A stretch of 64,000 nt of DNA from Methanothrix sp. (GTDB lineage: Archaea > Halobacteriota > Methanosarcinia > Methanotrichales > Methanotrichaceae), in NCBI RefSeq assembly GCF_030055635.1, contig NZ_JASFYM010000001.1, positions 104,462-168,461 of the forward strand, written 5' to 3'. Positions 44,043 through 55,999 of this stretch are shown here, piece after piece. The translations under genes and the position numbers were made by a program. A model generated the notes under the pieces. That model was not told where the DNA came from, searched no databases, and saw only the letters and a program-made list of their open reading frames with translations. How positions within the stretch are numbered: the stretch's first letter is position 1; every line of letters begins with the position of its first letter.

Positions 44043-44279
44043 TAATTTAAGGAAATTTATAAATACTATTTCAGATAATCCAGATCTCTGATTTCTGCGG
44101 GATCAGATGGTGTAGATCTCAATGATATGAGTATGCACTGCCTCTTTGGCGAATCGGAAATCGATGTGGTGGCACCGTTCGGTACAGCATATCTGTTCTG
44201 GCGTGGGGAAAAAGCCAGGCGGAACGGCGCTTATAGCTCCTTGAACCATCGATTGACTGTTCTGGATATATGCATGCAT

Positions 44280-44310
44280 GTTCGTTCGCCTACATATTTT
44301 TAAATCGTTC
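44280..44310 (+). promoter_or_regulatory. GTTC-box promoter A
   Basis: GTTC at 44280-44283 and 44307-44310, 27 bp apart start to start, around TATTTTTAAAT (about 44295-44305). A second GTTC (44284-44287) overlaps the first region. Matches the spacing seen at 45224/45251 and 49436/49463. Serves the secreted-protein gene at 44378. Confidence 0.6.
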
Positions 44311-44377
44311 AAAAAAAAAGCTGGGGCTGTCAGCTCTGAGCTGTCTGTGAGGAGCTGGCATCAAATGGAGGTATCAT

Positions 44378-44944
44378 ATGAGGCACTGGAAGATAGTAAT
44401 GGGTATCCCAAGACTGCTTTTGTTGATCTGCATGATTTGTCTTGTACAGATGGCATGCGGCGAGACCATCGATCTGGGTCCTGTTAGTGTATATATGGAT
44501 CTGGAGGATCTTAAGGTCCAAAGTGTTGAGAAGGAAGATGCAATTTCAATGGATCACAGCAAAGGTGGCGTTGAGTTTCAGTACACGATATATCCTGCCA
44601 CCATCACCATGGAGGACGGTCACAGGATCTGGATCGAGGTCCACCAGATGAACGCTCCAGTCCCACTCGATGCTCCAATCTCTGAGCGAGAGGATGCTAC
44701 AGGGATTGAGCACTGCATCATGGAGTCGAGTATGATGCCCCGTCGTGTGAGTTTCGAGAAGGAAGTGCGCACCATAGATGGACAGGATGGATGGCTTTTC
44801 ACCATCAACAATGGGGCTCTCTACATAGCTGGATGGAGTCCGGATCAGGTGAATGGATCCGGATCAATCATATGCATTGTGGGGTCTGATCTGCCATGGG
44901 AGAGTACCGAGGGGATCTTCGGTTCGCTGAGGACAGATTTTTAG
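44378..44944 (+). CDS. Secreted protein of unknown function
   Basis: 188 residues from ATG 44378, 6 nt after GGAGG. A signal peptide (about 10-28: PRLLLLICMICLVQMACG) contains a possible lipobox QMAC-G, so it may be a lipoprotein. The mature part has beta strands and GHRIWIEVHQMNAPV, IDGQDGWLFTINNGALYIAG and ICIVGSDLPWESTEGIFGSL. I do not recognise the family. It has a GTTC-box promoter like its downstream neighbours, hinting at shared control. Confidence 0.62.
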   Translation: MRHWKIVMGIPRLLLLICMICLVQMACGETIDLGPVSVYMDLEDLKVQSVEKEDAISMDHSKGGVEFQYTIYPATITMEDGHRIWIEVHQMNAPVPLDAPISEREDATGIEHCIMESSMMPRRVSFEKEVRTIDGQDGWLFTINNGALYIAGWSPDQVNGSGSIICIVGSDLPWESTEGIFGSLRTDF

Positions 44945-45299
44945 CATCACCTCTTCTTTTTAGGGAAGGCATATCAAACCCCGCATGCAAACAGGATACG
45001 CGTGCCCGATGGAAGGCGTTTTAGGGCTGTGGGCTTGAACAGCCATGAGCAGGACATCAGGCATCGATGGTCTCTGGCGAGAAGATCCATGGAGCTTGCA
45101 GGGAGAAGCCATGGCACTATCGATGATCCAGTACAAGGATCCTGACATCGTGCATTGAGGCTTGCCTGAGAGCTCTCATGTGACCTTTGCTGCGAAACGG
45201 AACGATATGTACGTTCGCCGTACGTTCGATCGGTGTATACTTTATCTATCGTTCCGCTGATCTCTGAACAGTTTCCGTGGGAACCGTGGTGATGCTGGA
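44945..45299. other. Intergenic region upstream of the ABC operon
   Basis: About 355 bases. The first 250 show no gene, only short frames without motifs. The last 100 contain the GTTC-box promoter of the macB-type operon (45200-45256). Confidence 0.4.
45200..45256 (+). promoter_or_regulatory. GTTC-box promoter B with flanking dyad
   Basis: GTTC at 45213, 45224 and 45251; the last two are exactly 27 bp apart and bracket TATACTTTATC (45236-45246). CGGAACGATA (45198-45207) and TATCGTTCCG (45247-45256) form a perfect 10-bp inverted repeat around it. A protein binding such repeats would control the ABC operon at 45300. Confidence 0.65.
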
Positions 45300-45992
45300 T
45301 TGAGGGTTATATCGCTCAGTGACATAAGAAAGACATACATCATAGGCGATGCAGAGCTTCCTGTGCTGAAGGGGATCAACCTCAGCATAGAGTCTGGAGA
45401 TTTTCTGGCGCTTATGGGGCCTTCTGGCAGCGGGAAGTCAACGCTCATGAACATCATCGGATGTCTTGACAGACCAACCGCGGGCACCTACCTGCTCCTC
45501 GATCGTGATATAAGCAAAGCATCCGAGGAGGAGCTCGCGATGGTACGAAGAGACAGAATAGGCTTCATATTTCAGGCGTTCAATCTCATCGGGCGAATAT
45601 CTGTGCTCAAGAATGTCGAGCTTCCGATGATGTTAAAAGGTATGCCATGTGACGAGCGGAGATCCAGAGCGCTTCAGCTGCTGGAATCCGTTGGCGTGGC
45701 CCACAGGGCGGATTTCAGCCCGCTCAACATCTCCGGAGGAGAGAGGCAGAGGGTTGCGATAGCACGGGCGCTAGCAAACAACCCAGAGATCATAATCGCG
45801 GACGAGCCCACGGGGAATCTCGATCTCAAAAGCACCGAGGAGGTGATGGATATTCTGAGCGGTCTGAACAGGGAAGGGCGGACGATCATAATGGTTACAC
45901 ACAACCCTGAGATCACAAAGTACTGCAATCGGGTCATCAGAATGAGGGACGGCAGAATACTTGATCAGTCATCTGTGGGGCAATCATCATGA
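45300..45992 (+). CDS. ABC transporter ATP-binding protein (MacB/LolD type)
   Basis: 230 residues from TTG 45300. Walker A MGPSGSGKSTLMNIIGCLDR, Q-loop GFIFQAFNLI, signature NISGGERQRVAIARALANNP, Walker B IIIADEPTGNLD, and VTHNPEITKYC. The sub-family drives MacB-like or LolCDE-like transporters that move proteins, peptides or drugs across the envelope. The following genes encode an exported COG1361-type protein and the permease, overlapping by ATGA. Confidence 0.94.
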   Translation: MRVISLSDIRKTYIIGDAELPVLKGINLSIESGDFLALMGPSGSGKSTLMNIIGCLDRPTAGTYLLLDRDISKASEEELAMVRRDRIGFIFQAFNLIGRISVLKNVELPMMLKGMPCDERRSRALQLLESVGVAHRADFSPLNISGGERQRVAIARALANNPEIIIADEPTGNLDLKSTEEVMDILSGLNREGRTIIMVTHNPEITKYCNRVIRMRDGRILDQSSVGQSS

Positions 45993-46846
45993 GATTACTG
46001 TTGTGGATGATATCATTGCTGCTCATCTCTTCAGGTGCATTCGCTTACATATATCACATGCCTGTGAACATACACTCATCCGTGGACCCGGCGGTTCTCA
46101 TGCCCGGGGATGAGGCGATAATCGCCATAGAGCTTGAGAACGGCGCAGCCAACTACGGCGCTGGCGGGGAATCGGTCGCAGGAACCTCAGCGCACAGCAC
46201 GCTCATCTCGACCCCCCTCAATACCACAAAACTCACAGGCACTGACATGATCGAGGTTCTCACAGAGGATTACCATAACCTCGGGATGATCGGCCCCACC
46301 GACAGGATCACAATCTACTACAAGATCAGGGCCTCCGGGAATGCCACGAGGGGCACGCATCTTCTCGACTTCGAGGTGCAGGGCGGTTACGATAGCATAA
46401 AAATCCACAGAACGATACCTGTGAAGGTGGATCCAGCAGCTGTCACCCTGACGCGAGCTGAGGATACAACCATGGGCACCATCAACCTCAACGTCGCCAA
46501 CCCGCGCGAGAACAAGGTGAATGCAGTCACAATAATTCCGTCTGCGAGGGGCGTCAGGTTCTCGCCCGAGGAGTACTACATCGGTACCATGGACCCAGAC
46601 GAGGTCTTCACGATAAGCTTCAAGGTGGATTCCATGGGGCTGGCAGAGCTGAATTCACCCCTGAACCTGAGCTTTGTGGCGAGGTTCAAGAACGGCGAGA
46701 CCTGGCATGAGTCTGAGGCATATGAGACACGATACTCTCCTCCAAAAGTCGAGCCGAGGCGGAACAATCTTGTCCTTGCTGGCGTGGCGGTTCTGCTCCT
46801 GATACCAGCCGCCTATATCTACAGACGAAAGAGGATGAAGGTTTAG
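45989..46846 (+). CDS. Exported, membrane-tethered COG1361-like protein of ABC operon
   Basis: 285 residues. Signal peptide (about 1-19), an extracellular region with two immunoglobulin-like beta modules (VNIHSSVDPAVLMPGDEAII; LNVANPRENKVNAVTIIPSA), and a C-terminal membrane helix (LVLAGVAVLLLIPAAYIY) before RRKR. This matches S-layer-related COG1361 proteins that accompany MacB-type transporters in archaea and may act as the substrate-binding or adaptor subunit. ATGA overlap with the ATPase; permease follows 17 nt later. Confidence 0.8.
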   Translation: MRLLLWMISLLLISSGAFAYIYHMPVNIHSSVDPAVLMPGDEAIIAIELENGAANYGAGGESVAGTSAHSTLISTPLNTTKLTGTDMIEVLTEDYHNLGMIGPTDRITIYYKIRASGNATRGTHLLDFEVQGGYDSIKIHRTIPVKVDPAAVTLTRAEDTTMGTINLNVANPRENKVNAVTIIPSARGVRFSPEEYYIGTMDPDEVFTISFKVDSMGLAELNSPLNLSFVARFKNGETWHESEAYETRYSPPKVEPRRNNLVLAGVAVLLLIPAAYIYRRKRMKV

Positions 46847-46862
46847 GGCCAGGGGCTGCAAC

Positions 46863-48071
46863 ATGAAGCTTTACGATATCCTGGATCTGATATCGATAGG
46901 GTTCAAGGCTGATCGCTTCAAGACCCTGATGTCCAGCCTTGGGATAATAATAGGAGTCATGGCCATAGTGGTCATGCTCTCCGTTGGCGAGGGTCTTTAC
47001 TCAGGAGTCTCATCACAGTTCAGCACGCTGGACCTCGATGTCGTACATGTGTTTCCAGGCAGGTTCACCTTTGGGGGGCCGCCGGGCAGGAGCCCGGAGG
47101 AGCCGGCCAGGTTCACAGACAAGGACACAAAGCTCCTGGAGAACATACCTGGAGTGAGAAATGTTGCTCCCCAGACCTCCGCAGGTGTGATAGTCAGCTT
47201 CAGGAATACAAACGCCTCCGCCACTCTGATCGGGGTCGATCCGGAAAAGGAGCACGATCTCAAATCGAAGATCTCTCAGGGGAGATTTCTCACAGAATCC
47301 GACTACACATCGATCGTGATAGGCAGCGGTGTCGCCGATGGGCTCTTCAGAATGAGGATCTCGCCTGGGAACAGGATAATGATATACTATGAGGATAACC
47401 ACATGGACTTCAAGGTTGTGGGGGTTCTCAGGGAGGAGGAGTCCTCCGGAATGAGAGCGGGCAACATCAACACACAGATGTATGTCACGCATAAGGCCAT
47501 GAAGGAGCTTTTGGGAAGGGAGAACTACTACTATGGAACTTTCCAGGTGACGGTCGATGATCCTGAGAGCGTCGATGAGGTGGTCGACCGGATAAAGCTC
47601 GATCTCGAGAGGTATCACAAGGACGAGGCATATGATGCAACGACAGCGAGGGATATGCTCTCATCCCTGATGAGCATACTTAGCATGATCAAGTATGCGC
47701 TTGCCGGAATAGGCGCGATATCGCTTGTCGTTGGCGGGATAGGCATCGCAAATGTGATGATGCTCACTGTGAAGGAGAGGATTCGCGAGATAGGGGTCAT
47801 GAAGGCACTCGGCGCAACGACGCGTGATATCCGCATCCAGTACCTGCTGGAGGCCGGTATGCTTGGTGTGGTCAGCAGCATCATCGGGATAGTGCTCGGC
47901 ATCGTAATATCATTTGCAATAGGATCTCTTGCAGGTCTGCCCTCCGCAATAAGGATACAGTCGATGCTCATAGGGATGCTCTTCGGAGCACTATCAACAA
48001 TAATAGCAGGAGTTTACCCTGCCAACAGGGCAGCAATGCTGGATCCGATCGAGGCGCTGAGGAGCGAGTGA
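46863..48071 (+). CDS. ABC transporter permease (MacB/FtsX type)
   Basis: 402 residues. N-terminal TM, a large periplasm-type MacB-PCD domain (GVDPEKEHDLKSKISQGRF, VIGSGVADGLFR), and the FtsX domain with three TMs: ALAGIGAISLVVGGIGIANV, LEAGMLGVVSSIIGIVLG and SMLIGMLFGALSTIIAGVYP; VKERIREIGVMKALGATTRD is the typical coupling segment. Third gene of the operon. Substrate unknown. Confidence 0.93.
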   Translation: MKLYDILDLISIGFKADRFKTLMSSLGIIIGVMAIVVMLSVGEGLYSGVSSQFSTLDLDVVHVFPGRFTFGGPPGRSPEEPARFTDKDTKLLENIPGVRNVAPQTSAGVIVSFRNTNASATLIGVDPEKEHDLKSKISQGRFLTESDYTSIVIGSGVADGLFRMRISPGNRIMIYYEDNHMDFKVVGVLREEESSGMRAGNINTQMYVTHKAMKELLGRENYYYGTFQVTVDDPESVDEVVDRIKLDLERYHKDEAYDATTARDMLSSLMSILSMIKYALAGIGAISLVVGGIGIANVMMLTVKERIREIGVMKALGATTRDIRIQYLLEAGMLGVVSSIIGIVLGIVISFAIGSLAGLPSAIRIQSMLIGMLFGALSTIIAGVYPANRAAMLDPIEALRSE

Positions 48072-48335
48072 GAAACAACAAATGCTAAAGAAACGATCCA
48101 AAATGAGGAGAATGATCGATGATGAGATCTCAGGCCAGTGATTTGTAAGCCGCATTTGAGCACCTTCACGGTAATTTAGTAATATTTCAAGGGGACCGGC
48201 CACAGAGCATGTCATTATAACATCTTCATAGATTAAGCTTAATTCGTGTGATGCCAACATCACTTTCGACATCGAAAACCATTTCTACATATTGAAGCAA
48301 GTAGACCTCAGAAGATCAGCGCATGTGAAGGCAGT

Positions 48336-49400
48336 ATGAATCGAAAGTCCAGGCTGTTTATCAGAGCTGCGAAGGCCCTATGGCTTTGTACCCTCGTTCT
48401 GCTTGTAATGAGCACTGCTGCCATCTCAGCCTATGATAACCGATCTCTCGTCCTGAATGTTTACCTGGACTGGACCGGAAAGGCTCTCATAACCGGATAT
48501 GCAGACGGCATTGAGGGGCTTCCATTCCTGAACTCATCCCAGTACAGCTATGACAACTCCACATCTCAGCTCTATGCCCTCACAAACACGCTAACATCTA
48601 AGGCCGGAGATGCATGGACCCTCCAGATCCAGTCATATGGATTTTACGAGCGGTACAGCATGATGCTGTATCTTCCGGGAGATGCCATGCTCAGCAGCAT
48701 AAGCCCCTCAGATGGCCTGAGCTATCTTGTATCATCCACAAACCAGTCACTGGCTGTCGATCTTCAGGGATACGATCTCGTGGATCCTTCTGTGGTTATC
48801 GAATACAGGCAGCCGCTCCTGACAGCATCAAACCTCTCATCGATAAATACATCTCTCCCGCCGGCAAAGAGGAGCCAGGCGTATTTTGCAGTTGCAGCGG
48901 CGTCTCTGATACTGGTCGCATGTGGCAGCGCCTTCTTGATCCTGAGGAGACGAATGGGATCAATAACACCGCGACCTGAGCCGCAGGCGAGCAGCCCGCA
49001 GGATATCCCACGGAAGGAACCGGATGGATCGCTCCGCTCTGAAAGCGCCACTGATGATAATGAGATGCACGATGGCACGTTGGATGTCGATCAGCCTGCC
49101 GAGGAGATCCCAAGAGCTCCGTTCATCCCGGGCTCTGAGCCGATAGAGATAACGAGTGAGATGGCTGCGGTGATAGAGACTCTGACCGCCAGGGAGAAAG
49201 CTGTCATGGAGGCTCTCCTGAAGAGGAGCGGGCGCATGACCCAGGCGGATCTGAGATACGAGACCGGCATCCCCAAGTCGTCCCTGAGCGGCATTCTGAA
49301 CTCTCTGGAGAGGAGAAAGCTGATAAAAAAGAGAGAATGGGGGAGAACAAACGTTATAGAGATCTCGGAGTGGTTTGTTTCCAGAAAAGAACATTCCTGA
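48336..49400 (+). CDS. Membrane-anchored winged-helix regulator
   Basis: 354 residues. Signal anchor (about 14-33), an exported beta-rich domain to ~170 (LVLNVYLDWTGKALITGYAD), a second TM at about 187-207 (FAVAAASLILVACGSAFLIL) with RRR after it, an acidic linker, and a cytoplasmic MarR/DUF7343-like helix-turn-helix at about 285-345: LTAREKAVMEALLKRSGRMT, LRYETGIPKSSLSGILNSLE, RRKLIKKREWGRTNVI. It resembles sensors that read the outside and bind DNA directly. It sits between promoters with paired GTTC boxes, so it is the leading candidate for their regulator. Confidence 0.85.
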   Translation: MNRKSRLFIRAAKALWLCTLVLLVMSTAAISAYDNRSLVLNVYLDWTGKALITGYADGIEGLPFLNSSQYSYDNSTSQLYALTNTLTSKAGDAWTLQIQSYGFYERYSMMLYLPGDAMLSSISPSDGLSYLVSSTNQSLAVDLQGYDLVDPSVVIEYRQPLLTASNLSSINTSLPPAKRSQAYFAVAAASLILVACGSAFLILRRRMGSITPRPEPQASSPQDIPRKEPDGSLRSESATDDNEMHDGTLDVDQPAEEIPRAPFIPGSEPIEITSEMAAVIETLTAREKAVMEALLKRSGRMTQADLRYETGIPKSSLSGILNSLERRKLIKKREWGRTNVIEISEWFVSRKEHS

Positions 49401-49435
49401 ACATTCTGATCTCAAAGGGGAATCAAAAAAAGAAC

Positions 49436-49466
49436 GTTCGTCCTGCATGCCTCTTTTATATCGTTC
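49436..49466 (+). promoter_or_regulatory. GTTC-box promoter C
   Basis: GAACGTTCG (49432-49440) and ATCGTTCG (49460-49467): GTTC starts 27 bp apart (49436, 49463), enclosing CTTTTATA (49453-49460) as TATA element. About 40 bp upstream of GTG 49506. Confidence 0.65.
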
Positions 49467-49505: not shown

Positions 49506-50213
49506 GTGTCGAAACTGAAGATTATGGGTGTGCTGGCGCTCACAGCGCTTCTTGCTGTGCCAGCGATGGCCATGCATGGGTGGATGCGCGGCGGATTTGA
49601 CGATCGCGGATGGGGTCCTGAGGTTGGGCCCGGTGGCATCTGGCTCCTCATGGATGATATCACTCAGGAGGAGCTCGAGAACATGACGCTCGCTGAGATC
49701 AGAGAGCTCAGGGAGAAGAAGAGGGCTGAGCTGGAGAACATGACGCTCGCGGAGATCAGGGAGCTCAGAGAGAAAAAGCTTGCACAGATGAACAACATGA
49801 CGCTTGCAGAGATGAGGGGAAAGGGCCCGGGCTACACGGAGTGCCCATACTGGCCCATGGGTGGAGCGCAGGGTCCGACGGGATTCAGAGGAATGGGGCC
49901 ATGTGATGCAGAGACATGTGTGGGGTCCATCGGAGGCATCTGGCTCCTGATGGATGACCTCACGCAGGAGGAGCTCGACAACATGACGCTAGCGGAGATC
50001 AGGGAGCTCAGGGAGAAGAAGAGGGCCGAGCTGGAGAACATGACGCTCGCAGAGATCAGGGAGCTCAGAGAGAAAAAGCTTGCAGAGATGAACAGCACGA
50101 CGCTTGCGGAGATGAGGGGAAAGGGCCCGGGCTACACGGAGTGCCCATACTGGCCCATGGGCGGAGCGCAGGGTCCGATGGGAGGACCAAGATTCGGAAA
50201 GATGCAGAGATGA
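49506..50213 (+). CDS. Secreted protein with duplicated N-M-T-L-A-E-I helical repeats
   Basis: 235 residues from GTG 49506. Signal peptide (about 5-22, ending PAMAM), then a methionine- and glycine-rich stretch, and two near-identical ~95-residue units. Each unit has GGIWLLMDD, then NMTLAEIRELREKK repeated twice and a shorter NMTLAEMRGKGPG, closing with YTECPYWPMGGAQGP. The six N-M/S-T triplets are N-glycosylation sequons. I know no such family; the helices are amphipathic and charged (REKKRAELE). The neighbouring gene shares a related NMSLEEIQSEIS motif. A surface role linked to the ABC operon is a guess from the shared promoter motif. Confidence 0.75.
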   Translation: MSKLKIMGVLALTALLAVPAMAMHGWMRGGFDDRGWGPEVGPGGIWLLMDDITQEELENMTLAEIRELREKKRAELENMTLAEIRELREKKLAQMNNMTLAEMRGKGPGYTECPYWPMGGAQGPTGFRGMGPCDAETCVGSIGGIWLLMDDLTQEELDNMTLAEIRELREKKRAELENMTLAEIRELREKKLAEMNSTTLAEMRGKGPGYTECPYWPMGGAQGPMGGPRFGKMQR

Positions 50214-50364
50214 CTATGATATGGGGTTCCCCTGCAGGATTGCTGGCCTGCTGAGGTCCAGCAATCCTGGTAACCTTTATGTCATGATCTCCCATTGCAT
50301 ATTTATCCATGCACCTGGAGTAGATCTGTATATTCCACAGGAGCATCTGGGCGTGGTGTGATTG

Positions 50365-51012
50365 ATGCATAAACTGGCAGTAGCCCTGATCGTGGGATTC
50401 ATTGTTATAGGCTCATCCTCTTGCATCTCATTCTCAGGCTTGAGCATGGATGCACCTTCGGATATGCCTCCGCCAGGTCCTCCGCAGGAGCTGGACACGC
50501 TGCGGCATGGGATGTGCATACAGGAGGGCTGCATGATCCCGATGCTTCATTACCGTGGTTTCGCTCTGCGCGAAAACACATCCTCCATGCTGAGCGTCTG
50601 GGTCGAGGGCATGAGGGAGGTGGAGCCGGCCAGGGCGAGGGAGCTGCTCTCATCGAACATGAGCCTCGAGGAGATACAGTCGGAGATAAGCAGGAGCAAC
50701 ATCACATACAGAGGTGTTCTCCGGATTGCGCAGGATGTTTACCAGATGAGGGGGATTGCCCTCACACGATCTGGAAATATAACCAGAATAGATGCGGAGC
50801 TGGCCAGAATCAGCTTCAGAGATGCGAGATCTGGGGAGGAAGCTGGTGAGGTTGTTGGCAACATAAGTCTCACGATCGACGATGATCTGATGCTCGGCAA
50901 GGGGAGCATGAGGATCAACTCGGGCGGCGCGAGGGGCAGCTACAGCATCATCCTCGAGATTGTTCCAGAGGGAATGAGAAAAGGCTGGCATCATCAGGCC
51001 CCTCGCGTTTGA
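50365..51012 (+). CDS. Secreted protein related to the duplicated-repeat protein
   Basis: 215 residues from ATG 50365. Signal peptide (ALIVGFIVIGSSSCIS) with a possible lipobox SSSC. The mature part has a proline-rich start, MCIQEGCMIPMLHYRG, and the helix SSNMSLEEIQSEISRSNITY like the NMTLAEIRELREKK units of its neighbour, then ITRIDAELARISF. The last third is beta-rich. N-glycosylation sequons are common (NMS, NIT, NIS). Its promoter lacks the GTTC pair. Function unknown; I link it to the preceding gene by sequence likeness. Confidence 0.65.
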   Translation: MHKLAVALIVGFIVIGSSSCISFSGLSMDAPSDMPPPGPPQELDTLRHGMCIQEGCMIPMLHYRGFALRENTSSMLSVWVEGMREVEPARARELLSSNMSLEEIQSEISRSNITYRGVLRIAQDVYQMRGIALTRSGNITRIDAELARISFRDARSGEEAGEVVGNISLTIDDDLMLGKGSMRINSGGARGSYSIILEIVPEGMRKGWHHQAPRV

Positions 51013-54698: not shown

Positions 54699-55999
54699 GT
54701 GCCGAATTTTCTGTAATTTGATGGTAATGATGAATAAGGGTCCTGTATCCCATAACATGTAAGGAAAACGGAGACAGGACCATGATACCTGTAGACCTCC
54801 TGGAAGATTACCTTATCGATCAGGAAGAGGGTTTGAAGAAGCTGTTGACCTACTTTTTGAATCTGGTCATGCAGCTTGAAGCGATTCAGCAGTCGGGTGC
54901 GGAGCCGTATCAGCGATCGGAATCGCGCAAAGCGCACAGGAACGGTTACAAGGAGAGGTCGTTGAAGACACGCGTGGGAGAGATCACACTCAAGAAGCCG
55001 CAGTTCCGCGAGATGCCGTTTGAGACCAAGGTCTTTGAGAGGTACTCGCGGGTTGAGAAGGCACTTATCAGTGCGGTGGCAGAATCGTATATCCAGGGCG
55101 TATCAACCAGACGGATAAAGTCCGTCGTATCTCAGTTAGGTCTCGAGTACCTCTCAGCATCAAGCGTTTCGCGGTTAGCTAAAGAGCTCGATGATAAGGT
55201 CGAGGAGTTCCTGAAAAGGCCGATAGAGCGACCAGTTCCGTATATCTTCGTCGATGCAAGCTACTTCAAGGTCAGGGATGGCCCAATGTACGTAACCAAG
55301 GCATTCATGATCGTTACAGGAATCCGGGATGACGGATATCGCGAGATACTTGGTGCGAGGATCGCGGATGGAGAGGATGAGAACTTCTGGTATGGTCTGT
55401 TCCAGGAGCTGAAGGACCGTGGCCTCTCAGGAGTGAAGCTCGTCGTATCCGATGGCCATAAAGGGATACAAAGCGCTGTTGAAAGCTCATTTCTGGGTGC
55501 GTCTTGGCAAATGTGCCACTCTCGACTACGTCGAGAGGCTTCGACGAAGTCGAAGCACGTTCACTTCATAAGAGCTGTCCTGAGAAATGTGGCCAGGAAA
55601 GATCTGAAAGAGATTGCCGACAAGCTCAAACTCGCACTCGAACACGAAAGCATGATGGATGTGCTGGTCGGTGAACTGGAAGATAGAGGATATTCAAAAG
55701 CCATCGATACCATCGACCGGTTCAGGTTCGGATTGTGGAACTACAAGTCATTCCCCAGGGAGCACTGGAAAAGAATACAGACCACAAACAGCATGGAGCG
55801 AATACATAAAGAACTCAAACGAAGATCAAGAGTCGTCGGTGCATTCCCAAGCGACAACGCATTTATCAGGCTCGCTGTATCGATCCTGATGGACATCAAC
55901 GAAGAATGGATGACCAGTAAAAGGTATTTAACCATGGATAACAGCAAATGAAAACAGGGATTGCAGGACTCACGATCAAAATTACAGCAAAATCGGCAC
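54699..55999 (+). mobile_element. IS256-family insertion sequence
   Basis: About 1.3 kb with imperfect ~25-bp inverted ends: GTGCCGAATTTTCTGTAATT (from 54699) against the reverse complement of the right end, GTGCCGATTTTGCTGTAATT (55980-55999). It encloses one transposase gene (54782-55951). No matching target duplication is visible at the two sides (TCGGCAGC left, ACTACCAC right), so it may be old or rearranged. Sits between the cobalt operon and the ribosomal cluster. Confidence 0.85.
54782..55951 (+). CDS. IS256-family (mutator-type) transposase
   Basis: 389 residues, apparently intact. DDE residues: Asp in YIFVDASYFKV, Asp in LVVSDGHKGI and Glu in NSMERIHKELKRR. Start LLTYFLNLVMQLE and RKAHRNGYKERSLKTRVG fit the family. 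Odd point: the usual W-Q-x-C-x-V-H-F block is split. Here WQMCH is followed by about 12 extra residues encoded by two small palindromes (CTCGACTACGTCGAG at 55521-55535; CTTCGACGAAGTCGAAG at 55539-55555) before VHFIRAVLRNV, in frame. The insert may or may not block activity. Confidence 0.9.
   Translation: MIPVDLLEDYLIDQEEGLKKLLTYFLNLVMQLEAIQQSGAEPYQRSESRKAHRNGYKERSLKTRVGEITLKKPQFREMPFETKVFERYSRVEKALISAVAESYIQGVSTRRIKSVVSQLGLEYLSASSVSRLAKELDDKVEEFLKRPIERPVPYIFVDASYFKVRDGPMYVTKAFMIVTGIRDDGYREILGARIADGEDENFWYGLFQELKDRGLSGVKLVVSDGHKGIQSAVESSFLGASWQMCHSRLRREASTKSKHVHFIRAVLRNVARKDLKEIADKLKLALEHESMMDVLVGELEDRGYSKAIDTIDRFRFGLWNYKSFPREHWKRIQTTNSMERIHKELKRRSRVVGAFPSDNAFIRLAVSILMDINEEWMTSKRYLTMDNSK

Follow-up and report, generated by a model that had tools for sequence, protein, structure and literature searches.

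The window analysed here, a stretch of 64,000 nucleotides from a Methanothrix genome, contains three promoters that share a pair of short boxes around the TATA element and, nearby, a gene for a putative membrane-bound regulator. The arrangement raises the question of whether this protein controls the three promoters directly, as the initial annotation of the window had proposed. The promoter elements concerned are the following:

44280..44310, + strand: promoter element A (GTTCGTTCGCCTACATATTTTTAAATCGTTC), 5' of a secreted protein gene
45198..45207, - strand: inverted box CGGAACGATA, left dyad arm of promoter B; GGAACGAT retained in four of five congeners
45211..45217, + strand: extra ACGTTCG box, 11 bp 5' of the first box of promoter B
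45224..45254, + strand: promoter element B (GTTCGATCGGTGTATACTTTATCTATCGTTC), kept in five congeners
49436..49466, + strand: promoter element C (GTTCGTCCTGCATGCCTCTTTTATATCGTTC), 36 bp 3' of the regulator stop codon

The GTTC pairs lie where the initial annotation had placed them, at 44280/44307, 45224/45251 and 49436/49463, with a spacing of 27 bp from start to start and a TATA-like stretch between the boxes in all three promoters. A better description of the repeat is TCGTTC at a 23-bp distance, occupying motif positions 3-8 and 26-31; its upstream copy carries a mismatch in promoters B and C. The 10-bp dyad described for promoter B is real as well (CGGAACGATA at 45198-45207, TATCGTTCCG at 45247-45256). 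Its arms GGAACGAT...ATCGTTCC are retained in G003, G004 and G005 and partially lost in G001 and G002 of the same genus, while the extra box reads ACGTTC in all six genus genomes, with the final G in two. Element A recurs at homologous genes in six other genomes and element C has an identical location in five of five congeners. The region upstream of the regulator gene itself is free of the motif, as had been stated; the best match there has 8 mismatches of 17 positions. Around promoter A (44243-44400), 84% identity over 160 bp was observed with a promoter in G001 (L170) that drives a different gene, encoding a KSMMDGR-repeat protein: the same promoter with a swapped gene.

The spaced boxes as such, GTTC-N23-GTTC, did not hold up as a special pattern, since 132 copies were counted in the genome versus 98 for a reversed control pattern. 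In the window seven copies stand against 1.16 expected from shuffles; being too common, the bare pattern was dropped as evidence. A scan of this and of related genomes had been suggested in the initial annotation, and with the longer element GTTCG-N19-ATCGTTC it singled out precisely the named promoters: the three exact matches in the 1.76-Mb genome are A, B and C, all within 5.2 kb. Allowing one mismatch added 12 further matches, compared with six for the control pattern.

Among 50 genomes of Methanothrix and its relatives, hereafter the family, the motif is widespread, with 121 exact matches to GTTCG-N19-ATCGTTC versus eight to the control pattern. The core TTCGG-N14-ATCGTTC extends to genera without the first box. 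Genera g9 and g5, taken at one stage to be motif-free, wrongly so, carry this core ahead of their ABC operon or repeat-protein genes. Pooling both pattern forms, 132 TATA-bearing sites were found in 49 of the 50 genomes, dispersed over contigs in other genera. The consensus of 83 non-redundant sites, GTTCGTTCGGYT[CA]TAnTTTTWTATATCGTTC, has sharp edges and consists of two TCGTTC boxes at 23-bp spacing with the TATA box between them; its anchored positions were set by the search and an AT filter acted on positions 16-24, while positions 6-10 and the T-rich pattern were touched only partly by anchoring and filter. Box spacing is essentially invariant among the fetched loci, a statistic that is inflated because some motif-based loci were picked via the motif.

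The genes downstream of the three elements are:

44378..44944, + strand: secreted protein, function not assigned (target A), signal-peptide-like N-terminus
45300..45992, + strand: ABC transporter ATPase of the MacB/LolD type (target B), Pfam ABC_tran 6.6e-32
45989..46846, + strand: membrane-anchored extracytoplasmic protein of the ABC operon
46863..48071, + strand: MacB/FtsX-type permease, MacB_PCD 1.9e-36, FtsX 1.8e-20
49506..50213, + strand: secreted NMTLAEI-repeat protein with tandem duplication (target C), 3' of promoter C
50362..51012, + strand: secreted small beta-domain protein, second gene after promoter C

The initial annotation had guessed at export and repeat-protein functions, and the targets do comprise an exporter operon of MacB-like type together with genes for secreted or envelope proteins. 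Target A, which has no match in Pfam or NCBIfam, has homologs as the first gene 3' of the motif in seven genomes, this one included. The ABC operon combines a MacB_PCD and FtsX permease with a MacB/LolD-type ATPase and is thus of the MacB type, under the equivalog cut-off for MacB proper; the best NCBIfam matches of the ATPase are MacB and LolD, both under cut-off. The protein encoded between ATPase and permease (45989..46846) matches no Pfam or NCBIfam family and has homologs in 41 of the 50 family genomes (E <= 0.001), a number that includes some weak and partial matches. A structure search with the small beta-domain protein (50362..51012) gave no match at E <= 0.001. For the repeat protein of target C, alignments from G004 and G005 suggest a single unit. 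A gene for an IS256/Mutator-family transposase lies close by in the window (54782-55951).

Counted over the family sites whose downstream genes were read, a secreted repeat protein is the first gene after the motif at 25 sites, and the ABC operon follows directly or one small gene later at about 15; the g9 and g5 sites likewise lie 5' of repeat-protein or ABC genes. An exported two-cluster ferredoxin-like protein follows the motif at several sites. The small ferredoxin-like protein seen in this position at L142, L150, L163 and L166 has an N-terminus resembling a signal peptide and is apparently exported. In several genera the third gene of the repeat-protein operon encodes a secreted soluble copy of the regulator's sensor domain (e.g., L078:9784-10227, L087:3749-4207). 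Within genus g2 (L144, L151, L160, L165, L168) the ABC operon opens with a small HTH-like protein (KHKPCLRGQILDRGELKRVAQACGLSPQ), and some of these operons also encode an AbrB-like protein.

The candidate regulator is encoded at:

48336..49400, + strand: transmembrane regulator, 354 aa, Pfam DUF7343 7.2e-14

Its profile match to DUF7343 (PF24034) reaches 51.8 bits against a curated cut-off of 27.6, it also matches MarR_2 (1.9e-07), and no other protein of the genome passes the DUF7343 cut-off. The layout claimed initially, an exported domain, two membrane spans and a cytoplasmic winged helix, agrees with this match and with an AlphaFold2 model built from an alignment of 24 orthologs, in which two helices (3-31 and 182-207) enclose a confident beta-sandwich (36-158) and the second helix is followed by a disordered linker and then the winged helix (274-349). 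Hydrophobic stretches match both helix places in those aligned orthologs that reach these regions. The beta-sandwich is predicted to be extracytoplasmic and the C-terminal winged helix cytoplasmic. With a DNA-binding domain and at least one membrane helix predicted in the same chain, the protein can be placed among the transmembrane transcription regulators (TTRs). By structure comparison the nearest folds of the winged helix are MarR/ArsR-like; a sequence search of solved structures yielded no match to the regulator. The fold of the sensor domain matched a yeast oligosaccharyltransferase subunit weakly (E 4e-5, TM about 0.26), and no function was drawn from this.

Across the family, a motif site lies 33-85 bp 3' of the regulator gene on the same strand for 32 of the 54 winged-helix copies, compared with 0.009 expected by chance. 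The other 22 copies have no directly following site, so that in those genomes the linkage is one of presence alone. In G019 and G011, duplicated regulators come with a site of their own. G019 (L084) has three tandem regulator copies, with a one-mismatch motif following the first.

A test independent of the motif was obtained from GTDB loci that were fetched via the regulator protein alone. Full-length orthologs were found in another order, in Methanophagales (ANME-1) and related MAGs. There, the motif occurs in a variant form, [AG]TT[AC]GTTC[TG]G...TTTTTATATCGTTC, which follows the regulator by 27-37 bp in 18 of 23 loci versus 3 of 435 control stretches (threshold at most 4 of 17 mismatches). 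Because of relatedness among the MAGs, the figure of 18 overstates the separate observations; differences above 10% separate 11 of the 18 site sequences. Three of the remaining loci have the motif one gene later, one site has diverged (five mismatches), and one locus, L363, is probably from a Methanothrix relative, judging by its g9-type site and the same contig place as in G042, which would leave 18 of 22 for ANME-1. The notion that the system is limited to the family was wrong, since the motif occurs in ANME-1 with an altered upstream box. Those genomes have hardly any site besides this one, and the next gene is mostly a homolog of the 50362 gene. A palindrome, GAACGATTCGTTC, was seen only in ANME-1. 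Identity to the ANME-1 copies amounts to 68-76% for the winged helix and 45-55% for the sensor domain, as expected if the DNA sequence that is read is constrained. In one ANME-1 genome (G436, ANME-1-THS) the regulon seems to be enlarged to four sites, one of which (L382) lies ahead of a gene for a secreted, glutamine-rich coiled-coil-like protein.

Natural loss provides a further view of the system. G012 is the only one of the 50 family genomes without an intact TATA-bearing site, and its regulator is a remnant broken by frame changes that has no winged helix. As the 50362 homolog is broken too and a search for the ABC operon in G012 detected none, this co-decay, seen in one genome, may reflect loss of the whole system. 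Conversely, G052 (93% complete) and G058 (56% complete) have sites and no detected winged helix; for G052 an assembly gap is possibly the reason.

Gene, motif and targets have thus remained associated, both within the family and in another order, and G012 has neither an intact regulator nor an intact TATA-bearing site. The linkage seen in both archaeal orders and the co-decay in this single genome support the direct control postulated initially. The product of 48336-49400 is very probably a membrane-anchored one-component regulator, which would directly control a small regulon through TCGTTC boxes around TATA.

Other readings of the same data have to be weighed. Binding of the regulator to the motif is predicted from sequence, 22 of 54 regulator copies are without an adjacent site, and in G052 sites occur with the winged helix undetected; the motif might then serve as operator for some other regulator, a soluble trans-acting factor co-occurring with the membrane protein, which would only share the neighbourhood. 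We regard this as unlikely: loci picked by protein alone still show the linkage in another order, the duplicated regulators of G019 and G011 have their own site, and G012 is without both intact regulator and sites. The boxes immediately flank TATA at a spacing without tolerance, which would also suit a BREu/BREd-like extension of the core promoter, recognised by an alternative TFB, in place of an operator. However, the distance of the upstream box from TATA exceeds that of a usual BRE by about 6 bp, conservation is poor at the BRE positions themselves, the element is present at only a handful of promoters in each genome, and its linkage partner is a winged-helix regulator gene; we consider such a core promoter very improbable.

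Chance or local duplication, by which the three promoters would be alike through copying and without regulatory meaning, could draw on the position of the three sites within 5.2 kb and on the 84% identity of promoter A to the promoter of another gene in G001. Sites A, B and C nevertheless differ widely beyond the 12 anchored bases, sites are scattered over contigs in other genera and the motif is conserved across orders, and we give this explanation hardly any credence.

Under direct control by the membrane-anchored regulator, a signal would be received by the beta-sandwich outside the membrane, and the cytoplasmic DUF7343 winged helix would bind the TCGTTC boxes that flank TATA at a fixed 23-bp spacing. 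The regulon would comprise secreted repeat proteins, the MacB-like ABC operon and other exported proteins. It is the predicted topology and the type of target from which we infer that the regulator senses the envelope. An archaeal TATA box is usually located near -30 to -23; if this holds here, GTTCGTTCGG would lie at about -46 to -37 and ATCGTTC at about -22 to -16, counted from the expected start. Given the invariant spacing, the protein may share this stretch of DNA with TBP/TFB, acting jointly with them or against them. In the family consensus the bases at the expected BRE place, just upstream of TATA, are pyrimidine-rich. As this looks like a weak BRE and resembles the case of EarA (see below), we lean slightly towards activation rather than repression as the mode of control. 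MarR/ArsR-like dimers usually bind palindromes, and the best-supported operators here are direct repeats, which counts against the proposed binding by this regulator.

More tentatively, and with somewhat less than even confidence, the data can be read in a wider sense. The membrane-fixed protein may grip both sides of TATA at rigid spacing, so that an outside signal gates TBP/TFB directly, with the secreted copy of the sensor domain providing feedback; it would represent a new class of archaeal membrane-tethered regulators, and a core unit of regulator, site and one secreted protein would be common to acetate-using methanogens and anaerobic methane oxidisers.

A literature search, covering mainly papers available without subscription, retrieved no paper describing DUF7343, a Methanothrix promoter motif or this architecture. 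By its predicted features the protein is a new transmembrane one-component regulator with operator and regulon, not described in the literature searched. Few archaeal regulons have a known operator, and to our knowledge the functionally known membrane-bound archaeal regulators are almost only ArnR/ArnR1 of Sulfolobus. The analysis supplies a regulator, a sharp operator and a target list for Methanothrix relatives and for ANME-1 methane oxidisers. Since we know of no pure cultures of ANME-1, the computed operator is one of few handles on regulation in this group. It also becomes testable how a membrane-fixed protein reaches and controls an archaeal core promoter.

Among known systems, the bacterial Cpx/CpxP envelope stress response is a two-component system, and the likeness to it lies in the target type alone, an envelope-linked regulon. 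EarA is an archaellum regulator without the membrane architecture of the present protein. It is described as a wHTH protein that binds upstream of the promoter, and BRE mutations bypass the activator (PMC13286277); the likeness is that of a wHTH protein at promoters where BRE strength matters. MsvR of methanogens recognises TTCG-containing boxes near BRE/TATA, which are inverted (TTCG-N7-9-CGAA) and tolerate changes in spacing, and it has a V4R domain (PMC3729527). Here, in contrast, direct TCGTTC repeats occur at a rigid 23-bp spacing, the protein is a membrane protein and its Pfam search gave no V4R match; MsvR was rejected as the binder on account of these differences in boxes and domain. 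ArnR and ArnR1 of Sulfolobus acidocaldarius are membrane-bound one-component HTH regulators of surface-structure genes (PMC6396743; PMC13286277). Their HTH is located in the N-terminal region (PMC13286277), whereas it is C-terminal in the present protein, which in addition has a large predicted extracytoplasmic domain and targets other than archaella. The TTRs of bacteria and archaea combine a DNA-binding domain and membrane helices in one polypeptide (PMC10269533). The regulator shares this one-chain design and differs in its predicted architecture of signal-anchor, beta-sandwich, second helix, long linker and C-terminal DUF7343 wHTH, to which a computed operator and regulon can be assigned.
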